Shown: in pieces, positions 32,795-46,444 of the stretch
Layout: every line of letters starts with the position of its first letter
Numbering within the stretch: position 1 is the stretch's first letter
Assembly (NCBI GenBank): GCA_030694265.1
Contig: JAUXYP010000002.1
Span: forward strand, 124,001-188,000
DNA length: 64,000 nt
DNA from: Sulfuricurvum sp.
Lineage (GTDB): Bacteria > Campylobacterota > Campylobacteria > Campylobacterales > Sulfurimonadaceae
Direction: 5' to 3'
Notes under the pieces: model-generated
What the model saw: the letters and a program-made list of their open reading frames with translations, nothing else
Databases searched by the model: none
What the model was told of the DNA's origin: nothing
Made by a program: the position numbers and the translations under genes

Positions 32795-33463
32795 ATGGAA
32801 CAGTTTGGATTTAGTCATTTTATTACGTCACTTGACGCTCTTGGGATAAGTGTGCTCATTGCTTTGCTGGTTCTTTCAATAGCCTCTTGGTACATCATTA
32901 TTGTCAAGGGAATAGCGCTGTATGGTTTGAATCGTCAGACGGATCGTTTTATGGATCGTTTTGTGGAGGCAGACACGATGAAAAAAATGGTTGAATTATC
33001 CGATGAGTCATTGTATCCATGCGATCTTTCCCGTGTACTAAAAAAAGTAACCGATCTGTCTATGGACCATAAGATCGAAACACTCGATACGATGTCAACA
33101 CGTATTTTGCATCACAGTATCGACAAAGCAACAGAAGAGACGGAAAAAGGAATGATATTATTGGCATCTGCTGGATCAGTTGCCCCATTTATAGGACTTT
33201 TTGGAACGGTATGGGGTATCTATCACGCACTTCTTACTATCGGGATGATGACACAAGGTTCGTTGGACAAAGTGGCAGGTCCCGTAGGTGAAGCTCTTAT
33301 AATGACAGCTTTAGGTCTTGGAGTAGCAATTCCTGCTGTTTTGGCTTACAATGCTTTTACCCGTGTCAATCGTCTTTATCTTTCAAAGTTGGATGGATTT
33401 GCTCATGATGTCCACTTGATGATCATGAATCACGCCCTAGGGCAAAATCAAAAGGACAGTTAA
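32795..33463 (+). CDS. exbB: ExbB-type proton channel subunit (MotA/TolQ/ExbB family)
   Basis: A 222-residue protein with three helices; the conserved core is LASAGSVAPFIGLFGTVWGIYHAL and GEALIMTALGLGVAIPAVLAYN. It forms the proton-driven motor with ExbD. It overlaps exbD by one base (TAATG at 33461-33465). TolQ is an alternative name, but the tonB and receptor neighbours favour ExbB. Confidence 0.93.
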   Translation: MEQFGFSHFITSLDALGISVLIALLVLSIASWYIIIVKGIALYGLNRQTDRFMDRFVEADTMKKMVELSDESLYPCDLSRVLKKVTDLSMDHKIETLDTMSTRILHHSIDKATEETEKGMILLASAGSVAPFIGLFGTVWGIYHALLTIGMMTQGSLDKVAGPVGEALIMTALGLGVAIPAVLAYNAFTRVNRLYLSKLDGFAHDVHLMIMNHALGQNQKDS

Positions 33464-33885
33464 TGGGCTTCGGTCGTTTTTCATCCAGAGATTCTTCCCC
33501 CATCAATGATATCAATGTTGTGCCATTGGTCGATGTGTTACTTGTTCTTCTGGTTGTTTTGATTGTAACCACGCCGTTGTTGATGCATGGTGTAAAAGTA
33601 GAATTGCCTAAGACGTCTGCATCGGTTATTGAGCCGCCACAGAAGCCTTTGACGTTGAGTATCCAAGCAGATGGTTCTTCCCTGCTTGATGATAACAAAG
33701 TGGACAACGATACAATAACGTCAACTTTAATGGAGCAATCAAAACGTTCCCCTGAGATACAATTACTGATTAAAGCAGATCGGGAAGTACCGTATGATTA
33801 TGTTGCGAAGGCGATGGCTCTTTCAGCGCAAGCGGGTATAACAAAAATCGGGTTTGTAAATGAACCTGATTGTGGATGCGACTAA
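33463..33885 (+). CDS. exbD: ExbD-type motor subunit (ExbD/TolR family)
   Basis: A 140-residue protein with one helix; INDINVVPLVDVLLVLLVVLIV carries the Asp that conducts protons. The periplasmic domain follows (GVKVELPKTSASV...). Last gene of the TonB module, followed by a terminator hairpin. Confidence 0.92.
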   Translation: MGFGRFSSRDSSPINDINVVPLVDVLLVLLVVLIVTTPLLMHGVKVELPKTSASVIEPPQKPLTLSIQADGSSLLDDNKVDNDTITSTLMEQSKRSPEIQLLIKADREVPYDYVAKAMALSAQAGITKIGFVNEPDCGCD

Positions 33886-33907
33886 AAGACAAGTAACATC
33901 TTTATTC

Positions 33908-33932
33908 TCTCTCCACATGGAGAGATTCTTTT
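33908..33932 (+). terminator. Terminator after exbD
   Basis: TCTCTCC-ACAT-GGAGAGA, a 7-bp stem with a 4-nt loop and TTCTTTT tail, 22 bases after the exbD stop. Confidence 0.75.
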
Positions 33933-33972
33933 GACGTAAATCAAAGACAAATCCTTCTTATTTTTCTATAAT
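33931..33972 (+). promoter_or_regulatory. FNR/CRP-like site and -10 element upstream of moaA
   Basis: TTGACGTAAATCAA (33931-33944) differs from the FNR consensus TTGAT-N4-ATCAA at one base. TATAAT lies at 33967-33972. If transcription starts about 7 bases after the -10 (near 33979), the site is centred at about -41.5, the classic activator position. A second -10-like TATGAT is at 34029, so a promoter nearer moaA cannot be excluded. Confidence 0.55.
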
Positions 33973-34063
33973 AAAACACTTCAACCCTTTCAAACTATCT
34001 TTTATTTATAATACGGCTTTGAGGTAGTTATGATACTCTTTGGGTGAAATTAAAAGGACGAAT

Positions 34064-35029
34064 GTGTTAATAGATAGTTATGGCAGAACAGTTGATTATT
34101 TACGCGTTTCGGTGACGGAGCGGTGTAATTTTCGATGTCAGTACTGTATGCCTGAAAAACCATTTTCTTGGGTTCCAAAAGAGAACTTGCTGAGTTTTGA
34201 AGAATTATTTGAATTTATTAAAGTATCCATTGACGAAGGTGTTAAAAAAATTCGTATTACCGGTGGTGAGCCGTTATTGCGTGAAGACCTTGACTGCTTT
34301 ATCAAAATGATTCATGAGTATAAAAATGATATTGATTTGGCGATGACAACGAATGCGTATTTACTCAAGGGCGCCGCACAAAAACTCTATGATGCAGGTC
34401 TGCGCCGTATTAATGTTTCCATCGATTCCCTTATCCCCGATATTGCTGAAAAAATTGCTAAAAAAGATGTGTTGAGTCATGTACTAGCAGGTGTAGAAGA
34501 AGCACTTCGTGTAGGATTTCGTGTAAAAGTCAATATGGTTCCCATGAAGGGGATGAACGACAATGAAATTTTGGACGTATTGGAGTTTTGCAAAGAGCGC
34601 AACATGACAGTCCGCTTTATCGAATACATGGAAAACGTTCATGCCGAAGTTGATATTAAAGGGATGCAAAGTGCAGAGCTTTTAGAAATGATCGGCAGTC
34701 GTTACAGCTACATTGATGAAGGTTTTGACGGTCACTCACCATCGCATTATTATAAACTCGATGATGGGTATGAGTTTGGAATCATTGAGCCGCACAAAGA
34801 TGATTTTTGTGCAAAATGCAATCGTATCCGTCTTACAGCCGAGGGCAATTTGATCCCATGTTTGTATTTTGATGAAGCAATGAGCATTCGTGATGCAATA
34901 CGCCGAGGCGATATCAAAGAAGCGGCATTGGTGCTCAAAGAAGTGATTCGTACAAAGCCGGAAAAAAACCGCTGGAGTGACCCTGACGGAGAACTTTCCA
35001 AGCGTGCTTTTTATGAAACGGGTGGATGA
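34064..35029 (+). CDS. moaA: GTP 3',8-cyclase MoaA (molybdenum cofactor)
   Basis: A radical SAM enzyme of molybdenum-cofactor synthesis. The N-terminal cluster motif is RCNFRCQYC and the C-terminal second cluster uses [20 protein letters not shown] choose GTG 34064 as start: AAAGGACG lies ahead and the protein then begins [16 protein letters not shown], as known Campylobacter MoaA does; TTG 34040 has no site. 321 residues. Its stop overlaps the queE start (ATGA 35026-35029). Confidence 0.93.
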
Positions 35030-35787
35030 TGCTGCATTTGGTTGAACATTTTTACTCGATCCAAGGTGAGGGAAAATATACAGGGGTTCCATCACTATTT
35101 TTTCGCTTTGGGGGATGCAATCTCACGTGTGCAGGATTTGGATGCCATGAAATAGCACCCGATGGAACCGAAGTTATTGGATGTGATACGGCCTATGCGG
35201 TTGATCGTAAAGCATTTGGAAAACTTTGGCAGGAAGTAGAAGAACTCCAAACCCTTATTTGGATCATGAACTCCTACCGTCTTCCTCCTCATGTTGACGT
35301 AGTACTCACAGGCGGAGAGCCGTTAATTTATGCAAATGAGCCGGTTTTTGTGGAATTTATCGATTATTTGATTGGTCAAGGTCATCGCGTTACGTTTGAA
35401 ACCAATGCAACCATTACGCCTGATTTTATTCGATACCCTTTTTACAAAGAAGCCGTTTATGCACTCTCGGTCAAGCTTTCAAACAGTGGTGAACCGTATG
35501 ATAAACGAGTGAAGTTTGAGGTTTTGGATTGGATTATTGCCAATACTAAGGGAAGTTTTTTTAAATTTACCGTCGATGAACCCTCCCTCGTCAGTCATAT
35601 CGAATCTGAAATTGATGAAATCATTGCCAAATATCCCAATACCTCTGTGTATTGTATGCCATTGGGTGGGGATAAATCTCATATTGAGGCAAACTGCGAA
35701 GCGGTCATCGAGTTTTGCAAACGCCGTGGTTTTATCTACAGCGACCGTCTGCATATCCGCATCTGGGATAAAAATCATGGAGTGTAG
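35026..35787 (+). CDS. queE: 7-carboxy-7-deazaguanine synthase QueE
   Basis: A radical SAM enzyme in queuosine (and related deazaguanine) synthesis. [25 protein letters not shown] opens the protein, TGGEPL is the SAM motif, and FETNAT follows. 253 residues. The cysteine motif is not the usual CX3CX2C: CNLTC is followed by AGFGC and then GCDTAYAVD, so the third ligand could be Cys10 or Cys23 counted from the first. The next gene is queD, an adjoining step of the pathway. Confidence 0.9.
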
Positions 35788-35790
35788 TCA

Positions 35791-36372
35791 ATGATCATCC
35801 GTAAACTTTTTAAATTTGAAAATGCGCATATTGTTCGTGGATGTTCGAGCGAGCGGTGTCGTGCATCGGTTCATGGACACTCGTATAAAATCGAGGTGCT
35901 TTTTGAATCAGATTATCTTGACAATGGGCAAATGGTGTACGATTTCGGACTGATGAAGCAGGGGATGAAAGCACTCATCGACAGTTTTGATCACTCTATT
36001 GCTTTATGGAGTGGGGATGATACACACTATCTTGAGGATATGAAACGCCACTCGAGTCGTTGGGTAGAACTTCCTGTATCACCGTCCGCAGAACAGTTTA
36101 GCCGTGTTATTTTCGTGATGATTGATAAATTACTTGGATGTACCCAATCGATCAATGGTGAGCGCGAGGTGAAATTGCACAGCATAATCGTTCATGAAAC
36201 CGATACAGGATATGCCCAAGGCTTTCGTGAGGATGCATATTCCCAAAAGATGGGATTAATCGGGCTAGAAAAAATTATTTTTAGCGATGGAGTACGAGAA
36301 GAGTGGGGTGATCCACAGCTTTGGGAAAAAATAATTGCAAATCAGATTTTTATTAACCCCGATACGGTTTAA
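35791..36372 (+). CDS. queD: 6-carboxy-5,6,7,8-tetrahydropterin synthase QueD
   Basis: A PTPS-family enzyme that makes carboxy-tetrahydropterin, the substrate of QueE. 193 residues. FENAHIV, VHGHSYKIEVLFE and FDHSIAL supply the zinc His ligands, and Cys23-type CRASVHGH and the Glu near LHSIIVHETDTGYA are catalytic residues. Longer than the usual 120-residue QueD, with a C-terminal extension. It is 3 bases after queE and converges on moeA. Confidence 0.9.
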   Translation: MIIRKLFKFENAHIVRGCSSERCRASVHGHSYKIEVLFESDYLDNGQMVYDFGLMKQGMKALIDSFDHSIALWSGDDTHYLEDMKRHSSRWVELPVSPSAEQFSRVIFVMIDKLLGCTQSINGEREVKLHSIIVHETDTGYAQGFREDAYSQKMGLIGLEKIIFSDGVREEWGDPQLWEKIIANQIFINPDTV

Positions 36373-37586
36373 TGCGTTACGAGTGAAACTTGCGTGTCGG
36401 TATTCATACACCAGCGTGTAGGGATGATTTTCACTTCCGCACCTTGCTCAAATTTTTCCACACTTTCATCCACCATCATATAGCTGTTTGCACGAGAGAG
36501 CGGCAATACCATCCCTGGACCAAAATTGGGACTTGGGGTAAAACTTGATCCATCAAACCATCCAGGGATCAATGATCGACGTCCTTTTTTCATCACAAAC
36601 GGCTGAGCCATCCGAGTGGTGATAGTGGAGAGGTATTTATCACTCCGACCGCTAAGGGCGTGGATGATACTCTGACCAAAGAGCTCAAAACACAGTGCTG
36701 ATGCAAGTGGATTTCCCGGTAAATTTAAAATAAGCGTCTCTTTGATCTTTCCAAAGGTTGTTGGTTTCCCCGGTTTGATCTCGACTGATTCAAAGATATT
36801 TTCAAAGTTAAGCCCTTGAAACGCTTTTTTAGTGTAATCAGCATCGCCGACACTTACGCCTCCTGATGTGACGATCAAATCGGCATCCAAAGAACTTAGG
36901 ATATGATTTTGGATGGATTCAATGGTATCCCCGGCTGTTCCTGTAAATATCACTTCACATCCTAACTCCGTTGCACGCGCAGTAAAAGTTGGGGTGTTGG
37001 TGTTATAGAGTTGATTATTTCCAAGAGTCTCAAAATGCATCTTGAGTTCATTTCCTGAAGAGAAAAAGGCAACGCGAAGACGTCGATACAGCTTTACGTG
37101 TGTGATCCCCTGTGATGCGAGCAGTGTGATGTGATGGGCATTTAGAAAAGTCCCTTTTTCGAGCAATGTCATATCGTATTGGATGTCTTCGCCTTTGAGA
37201 CGGATATGTTGTCCTGCTTTAATATTGGAGCCAAAGGTGACATTATCCCCCTCGATGGTCACGTTTTCTATAGGGACAATCGCTTCGCACCCTTGTGGAA
37301 TTTTTGCTCCGGTCATGATACGGATACATTGATCCTCCGTGAGTCTGACGTCATTAACATCGCCGGCGAAGACAATGCAAGACTGCGGCAAAGTCTTGCC
37401 GCGATCGCAGGTGCGAATAGCGTATCCGTCCATTGCTGAATTATCAAAAGCAGGGAGAGAATGCGTAGCGGTAATGGTCTGCGCTAAAATACGATTGATT
37501 GCATTTTCGATAGGAGCAATTTCGGTACTGCGTGGCAATGCTGTGGAATATATATAATGAAGTGCCTCTTCGACGTTGATGGCCAT
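36369..37586 (-). CDS. moeA: Molybdopterin molybdenumtransferase MoeA
   Basis: Inserts molybdate into adenylylated molybdopterin. 405 residues, full length: AIENAINRILAQTI, PAFDNSAMDGYAIRT, IMTGAKIPQGCEAIVPIE, the MoaB/Mog-like domain with FSSGNEL, VTSGGVSVGDADY and LNLPGNPLASALCFELF, then a C-terminal beta domain. AAGGAGA ahead of its ATG. Convergent with queD, overlapping by four bases. Confidence 0.95.
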   Translation of the reverse strand: MAINVEEALHYIYSTALPRSTEIAPIENAINRILAQTITATHSLPAFDNSAMDGYAIRTCDRGKTLPQSCIVFAGDVNDVRLTEDQCIRIMTGAKIPQGCEAIVPIENVTIEGDNVTFGSNIKAGQHIRLKGEDIQYDMTLLEKGTFLNAHHITLLASQGITHVKLYRRLRVAFFSSGNELKMHFETLGNNQLYNTNTPTFTARATELGCEVIFTGTAGDTIESIQNHILSSLDADLIVTSGGVSVGDADYTKKAFQGLNFENIFESVEIKPGKPTTFGKIKETLILNLPGNPLASALCFELFGQSIIHALSGRSDKYLSTITTRMAQPFVMKKGRRSLIPGWFDGSSFTPSPNFGPGMVLPLSRANSYMMVDESVEKFEQGAEVKIIPTRWCMNTDTQVSLVTH

Positions 37587-45817: not shown

Positions 45818-46444
45818 ATGGCAAGATATAGAGGACCCGTAGAAAAAATCGAAAGAAGATTCGGTGTTAGCCTTGGTCTAAAAGGTGAGCGTCGTCTTGC
45901 AGGTAAAAGTGCACTTGACAAACGTCCATATGGACCTGGTCAACACGGTCAACGCCGCACAAAAATTTCTGAATACGGTACACAGCTTCGTGAAAAACAA
46001 AAAGCGAAGTTTATGTACGGTTTGAGCGAAAAGCAAATGCATTCATTATTTGATGAAGCAAAGCGTCGCCAAGGAAATACAGGTACAAACCTAGTATTGC
46101 TTCTTGAGCAGCGTCTTGACAATGTTGTATACCGTATGGGTTTTGCAACAACACGTCGTTTCGCTCGTCAATTGGTTAATCATGGTCATGTCATGGTAGA
46201 TGGTAATCGTGTTGATATTCCATCATACCGTGTTAAGCCTGGTCAAAAAATCGAAATTATTGAGCGTAGCAAAAAGAATAACCAAATTATTCGTGCAGGT
46301 GAGCTTACAAATCAAACTGGCCTTGCGGCATGGGTTGATATTGATCAAGCTAAATTATTTGGTATCTTTACACGTCTTCCAGAGCGTGAAGAGATTGTTA
46401 TTCCTGTAGAAGAACGTCTAATCGTCGAGCTTTACTCGAAATAA
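45818..46444 (+). CDS. rpsD: 30S ribosomal protein S4
   Basis: 208 residues; [18 protein letters not shown] start, [13 protein letters not shown] and an S4 RNA-binding domain ([31 protein letters not shown]). Member of the rpoA operon; S4 often autoregulates such operons. Confidence 0.98.

Follow-up and report, generated by a model that had tools for sequence, protein, structure and literature searches.

A putative Nss-type Crp/Fnr activator box ahead of moaA in a Sulfuricurvum genome, with a promoter spacing shared with napA and recurring in near relatives

The moaA gene of this Sulfuricurvum genome is preceded by a predicted Crp/Fnr-type activator box, whose class II position relative to a predicted promoter (P1) is supported by the sequence. 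We consider it probable that P1 is a class II, Nss-type, activator-dependent promoter and that a second promoter (P2) gives the basal level, so that the molybdenum cofactor would be raised together with NapA. The window, i.e., the whole stretch of 64,000 nucleotides analysed here (G000:C18:124001-188000), belongs to a genome of 2.147 Mb that is rated 100% complete, and its MoaA shares 97% identity with the MoaA of L018, a Sulfuricurvum metagenome assembly. The box, its gap to the -10 hexamer, their recurrence in relatives, the targets shared with napA, and the two regulator genes are read from the DNA itself. The features of the region, in window coordinates, are:

33906-33933, plus strand: intrinsic terminator after exbD (stem 33906-33925, T-rich tail; -10.9 kcal/mol, z -2.93)
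33931-33944, plus strand: predicted Nss/FNR-type box TTGACGTAAATCAA, matching TTGAY-N4-RTCAA at 10 of 10 positions
33967-33972, plus strand: P1 -10 hexamer TATAAT, 22 nt 3' of the box, predicted start near 33979
33979-34063, plus strand: leader of the predicted P1 transcript, fold not significant (z -1.06)
33980-33984, plus strand: TTCAA half-site, 22 nt before the P2 -10, possibly a decayed box (its function is a guess)
34007-34012, plus strand: P2 -10 hexamer TATAAT, 40 bp after P1, predicted start near 34019
34053-34058, plus strand: ribosome-binding site AAAGGA, read from the sequence
34064-35029, plus strand: moaA, GTP 3',8-cyclase (TIGR02666, 353 bits, cut-off 284)
35026-35787, plus strand: queE-like gene, 7-carboxy-7-deazaguanine synthase (top NCBIfam matches below their cut-offs)
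35791-36372, plus strand: queD-like gene, 6-carboxytetrahydropterin synthase (TIGR03367, 68 bits, cut-off 89)
36369-37586, minus strand: moeA-like gene, convergent and outside the P1-controlled unit

The box lies in the intergenic stretch between position 33885, the end of a gene that we take from its sequence to be exbD, and the GTG codon of moaA at 34064; its first bases are overlapped by the T-rich tail of the terminator. TTGACGTAAATCAA has a single mismatch to TTGAT-N4-ATCAA and is centred at 33937.5, which is 41.5 nt before the P1 start (33979, a prediction placed 7 nt after the -10 hexamer) and hence at a class II position. The first-pass annotation had described an FNR-like box one base off the consensus and centred 41.5 bases before the start predicted from TATAAT at 33967-33972; its sequence and coordinates were correct, and recomputing the distance gave the same value. 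The box also has the form TTGA-N6-TCAA of Nss-type sites, and the class II distance is the one seen at nap, with 22 nt to TATAAT ahead of both moaA and napA.

The genes downstream are tightly packed: the end of moaA overlaps queE, and queD follows after 3 nt. We chose the GTG start at 34064 for moaA, whose mechanical reading frame opens at 34040. The earlier proposal that molybdenum cofactor and queuosine genes are the target would hold for moaA-queE-queD but not for moeA, which is on the opposite strand. Among the 77 relatives with enough room downstream, queE begins at most 60 nt after moaA in 60 (18/26 of those bearing the box vs 42/51 of those free of it).

Genome-wide, TTGAYNNNNRTCAA occurs at 30 places, compared with 5 for the pattern read backwards. 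Most of these places (24) fall within mechanical reading frames. A -10-like hexamer stands at 22 nt in each of the remaining six, which precede napA, moaA, two genes for c-type cytochromes, nnrS, and a gene for a hemerythrin. The motif scan that had been suggested as a check retains only two loci with the exact box, 22 nt, and TATAAT, namely napA (C10:4642-4683) and moaA. Allowing one mismatch adds five further places (the two cytochromes, nnrS, hemerythrin, and C9:8183), while up to three mismatches give 144 matches vs 91 in the control, i.e., barely above it. The nnrS gene and a cytochrome c/COX1-family pair, which we read as norC/norB, are oriented divergently. At C9:8183 (L270:2526-3225, minus strand), TATAAT follows a 9/10 box after 22 nt, perhaps by chance; we take the gene there to be nucleotidyltransferase-like and followed by a small partner gene (an MNT/HEPN-like pair). 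The window itself holds a perfect TTGATATTGATCAA at 46335-46348, within a reading frame that presumably encodes ribosomal protein S4, with no -10 hexamer at 18-25 nt.

The napA genes of the relatives carry the same arrangement. Their 39 match rows correspond to 30 loci, one of which (L219) is cut at its start and unusable. A 10/10 box with a -10-like hexamer matching at least 4 of 6 positions is present in 28 of the 29 usable loci, at a gap of 22 nt in 25 and of 23 nt in 3, and the only exception, L203, has no box ahead of napA. In the 50 genomes examined, the exact box followed after 22 nt by TANNNT occurs 352 times vs 20 times for the reversed control. The six genomes in which we found no Crp/Fnr factor have 6, 0, 0, 0, 1, and 1 such matches, compared with a median of 8 (range 1-17) in the other 44 (p = 0.0008, not corrected for relatedness). 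The genome with six matches and no factor found (that of L020, 1.6 Mb) is probably incomplete. In one relative, napD, nrdD, and nrdG are followed after about 1.1 kb by moaA on the same strand (L030:604-5966), and in this genome napA and the nap-type regulator lie 8-12 kb from the moaA box, napA at about 8 kb.

We then compared 80 usable moaA upstreams, i.e., the window and 79 of 80 loci; L060 was left out, its match beginning at base 2 with no upstream, and three upstreams are shorter than 300 nt. A box matching at least 9 of 10 positions anywhere in the 300 nt is only mildly enriched (29/80 vs 14/80 for the reversed motif). With a -10 hexamer matching at least 5 of 6 positions at 21-22 nt, this box is found in 28 of the 80 (24 at 22 nt, 4 at 21 nt) and is missing from 52; relaxing the box to at least 8/10 raises the count to 34. 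First-order Markov resamples (60 draws) average 0.08 with at most 1 at 9/10, and 0.9 with at most 3 at 8/10. The reversed motif with the gap is never found at 9/10 and is found four times at 8/10, all at 22 nt and none at 21 nt. The distance from the box to the start codon varies from 64 to 226 nt while the gap between box and -10 stays fixed. Eight loci (L051, L059, L061-L064, L066, and L069) have asymmetric boxes, TTAAY-N4-RTCAA, in which the promoter-near half keeps the consensus and the far half has A for G.

General conservation of the box through the class was rejected. From the 99 non-window moaA rows in a sample drawn evenly over the class we picked 40 by hand across families and dropped L298, which has 12 nt; a comparable pair occurs in one of the remaining 39 upstreams (L279, with a weak -10) and in none of the six from the same family, and L271 appears to be the same contig as L077, with the same best motif. 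The box changes between present and absent at least 16 times on a quickly made moaA tree, many branches of which are weak. These scattered changes and the single case across the class suggest that the box is a feature of near relatives, often gained or lost.

The second promoter behaves differently. In a hand-chosen alignment of 10 close sequences, including the window, TATAAT of P2 and the TCAAC 22 nt ahead of it are invariant, whereas P1 varies and the box is present in six sequences and absent from four; P2 is thus more conserved than P1. This points to P2 as probably the basal promoter and P1 as an added, activated one. The first-pass annotation had the genes "switched on" by the regulator: an activator box is indeed there, but "on" is too strong, since the second promoter is invariant also in the four box-free sequences and probably gives a basal level, and "boosted" describes the likely effect better. 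Because TTCAA stands at the same 22 nt from P2, it suggests an old box that has lost one half, which is a guess. The leader contains a five-codon frame (34030-34047, ATG ATA CTC TTT GGG TGA) after GAGG, whose start codon is not universal in relatives (ACG in L019). Rfam gave nothing above the gathering score within 33300-34300. A Moco riboswitch was rejected for lack of any Rfam match in this interval at E up to 5, as was another leader RNA, with no Rfam match and no significant fold.

Which protein could read the box? We found two Crp/Fnr transcription factors suitable for such a role in the genome, and no third; one of them adjoins nap:

C10:5604-6260, minus strand: nap-linked Crp/Fnr factor, two genes upstream of napA
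C9:479561-480190, minus strand: second Crp/Fnr factor, closest solved structure DNR (3dkw, E 1e-16)

One factor has cysteines at positions 14, 86, 91, 106, and 138 and the other at 25, 95, and 143; the N-terminal cysteine set by which FNR holds its [4Fe-4S] cluster is absent from both. We made five models (mean pLDDT 62.6 to 80.8), in which the nap-linked factor has the CRP/FNR fold (Z 16.9 to 2gau); it matches Aliivibrio fischeri holo-FNR with Z 16.4-16.6 and rmsd 5.8-5.9 over 210-212 aligned residues, a fold comparison that is uninformative on the type of sensor. A PilJ-domain protein with weak similarity to NarQ adjoins the nap-linked factor (L103:4203-5105, minus strand) and is possibly its nitrate sensor partner.

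The recognition helices read PATLSR in the nap-linked factor and PETLSR in the C9 factor. Among regulator sequences (78 matches read; three partial and extra weak matches were left out), 77 of 80 fit [PH]-[AE]-T-[LFH]-S-R, with Glu in 59 and Ala in 18, and the three exceptions are a cut-off sequence, one AETLSR, and one SREVISR. The Glu of the recognition helix is described as correlating with the box, its loss going with the loss of TTGA (PMC1274295, in part). PETLSR therefore fits TTGAY well, and the nap-linked factor, with Ala where FNR and DNR carry Glu, may not be the reader of the box. The napA boxes beside the PATLSR factor are of the TTGAC type, also in L018 and L024, where only the nap-type factor was found and where there are 5 and 3 exact boxes, respectively. 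A moaA box occurs in L018, where the nap-type factor is the only one found, and in L064, L066, L081, L083, and L091, where all factors found are of the PETLSR type.

We asked if the box goes with nap or with the regulators across the 50 of 80 genomes examined (27 with the box at 9/10 or better and 23 without), scoring the fragmentary napA matches of G013 as present. No test was significant, be it for nap (21/28 vs 12/23, p = 0.14), the nap-type factor (16/28 vs 9/23, p = 0.26), the other factor type (p = 0.32), any factor (26/28 vs 19/23, p = 0.39), or tree-based pairs. A link across genomes was thus rejected and co-occurrence is not used as evidence. Many of these genomes are incomplete metagenome assemblies, which makes absences weak. 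Seven of the 23 box-free cases have nap and a nap-type factor 72-88% identical (L021, L023, L024, L025, L028, L034, and L038), and two more have nap and a distant nap-type factor (L077 and L080). L068 has a near-box, no factor found, and no exact box elsewhere. Sister genomes conflict: L022 lacks box, nap, and factors, and L024 lacks the box but has both nap and the nap-type factor.

These data bear on several other explanations of the box. It might be a chance resemblance beside a terminator, given that the genomic palindromes within reading frames are probably not sites and that the reversed motif at 9/10 also turns up in 14 moaA upstreams; yet 28 of 80 upstreams keep the fixed gap where resamples average 0.08, and moaA is one of two exact matches genome-wide, the other being napA. 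These results refute chance at the level of sequence statistics, and we regard such an origin of the box as very improbable. Action at moaA by FNR proper, an oxygen sensor carrying a [4Fe-4S] cluster, would agree with a box one base off the FNR consensus, but both Crp/Fnr factors found in this genome, rated 100% complete, lack the N-terminal cysteines, and no FNR orthologues were found in Campylobacterota according to the available text of a review (PMC6682613); we find this reading the hardest of all to credit. Of the FNR/NssR-type regulator proposed initially, an NssR/Nss-type protein stands as the likely reader and FNR itself does not, neither factor having its cysteine set. The same observation leaves low oxygen, also proposed, without support as the direct signal. 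The shared targets and published work on Nss make nitrate or NO the likelier signal.

The remaining explanations concern how the box would act. If the site were weak or in decay and had little effect, P2 would do the work and P1 contribute little. This agrees with the invariance of P2 and TCAAC in the 10 sequences where P1 and the box come and go, with the 16 or more changes on the tree, and with the lack of a significant link to nap. Still, the distance from box to -10 is fixed in the many lineages that keep the box, and decay would hardly leave a full 10/10 box with TATAAT as in the window, so that we deem it unlikely, if the most serious of these alternatives. Alternatively, P2 could be activated from the box in a class I arrangement, with the box centred 81.5 nt before the predicted P2 start; the 40 bp between P1 and P2 are close to four helical turns, and P2 is the better conserved. 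We judge this quite improbable: what recurs is a first -10 placed 21-22 nt from the box, and 13 of 28 box-bearing relatives have only 64-74 nt between box and start codon, too little for another promoter 40 bp downstream.

The activator-dependent P1 thus remains our preferred reading. We infer from the features above the binding, the activation, the signal, and the basal role of P2, and either of the two regulators may be the one that acts at moaA. The moaA-queE-queD unit would have two promoters, with P2 (34007-34012) supplying a basal level. An Nss-type Crp/Fnr dimer would sit on 33931-33944 at -41.5, overlapping a poor -35 region, and would help RNA polymerase to start at P1 in the presence of nitrate or of NO formed from it. 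More of the molybdenum cofactor would then be made along with NapA, the molybdoenzyme that depends on it, as suggested by the same box and 22-nt gap ahead of the napA, nnrS, two cytochrome c, and hemerythrin genes. The moaA-queE-queD unit is probably a lineage-specific member of a nitrate/NO regulon.

The closest known system is the Nss regulon of Wolinella succinogenes (NssA, NssB, and NssC), whose Crp/Fnr activators for nitrate, NO, and N2O respiration increase nap, nrf, and nos in response to these compounds (excerpts of PMC6682613 and PMC8139620). One of the factors found here adjoins nap and the other is nearest to the NO sensor DNR, which fits this family, and the nap-linked one fits NssA by its position beside nap, from context alone. 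In Nitrosophilus, too, a regulator gene lies upstream of nap, and the Nss box, TTGA-N6-TCAA, begins 48-49 nt before the predicted starts of napA, norE, and nosB, compared with 48 nt here (PMC11539149, in part). A difference is that moaA is not mentioned in PMC11539149 or PMC8139620. The former reports denitrification transcripts present without nitrogen oxides and a negative correlation between the nap-linked factor and nosZ, which argue against a simple switch.

NssR of Campylobacter jejuni, an activator for nitrosative stress, is of the same family and phylum, but its box is TTAAC-N4-GTTAA and its specificity positions are A and Q (PMC1274295, in part). Here, they are P and A or P and E and the box is TTGAY-N4-RTCAA, with G at position 3 and C at position 12 in the window; the moaA boxes of relatives have TTAAY as first half only. 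DNR of Pseudomonas aeruginosa, the closest solved relative of the C9 factor, shares the PET-x-SR recognition helix. In Escherichia coli, FNR activates moaABCDE (PMC10845959, in part), so that there also a member of the FNR family turns up the first Moco operon at times of need for molybdoenzymes. In the present case, the likely regulator lacks Fe-S cysteines, moaA stands singly and is joined to queuosine genes, and no Moco riboswitch was found. Among open-licence papers, we found no text on moaA as an Nss or Crp-Fnr target in the phylum.

The regulation of metabolism in Campylobacterota was called an enigma in a 2019 review (PMC6682613, in part). The moaA promoter offers a testable candidate, supported by sequence, for Nss control that reaches past the respiratory enzymes; the type of control is known and the link is modestly new. 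Such control would account for a cofactor supply that keeps step with nitrate reductase in a genome where neither FNR nor a Moco riboswitch was found. The box is patchily distributed among close relatives, which provides natural comparisons. More tentatively, and with our judgement close to balanced but leaning slightly against, moaA and a queuosine precursor step may have been drawn repeatedly into the Nss nitrate/NO regulon in Sulfurimonadaceae, the box settling at one fixed distance from the promoter of each lineage and the older promoter keeping a half-site. If this is true, nitrate respiration would raise both the cofactor of nitrate reductase and a tRNA modification.
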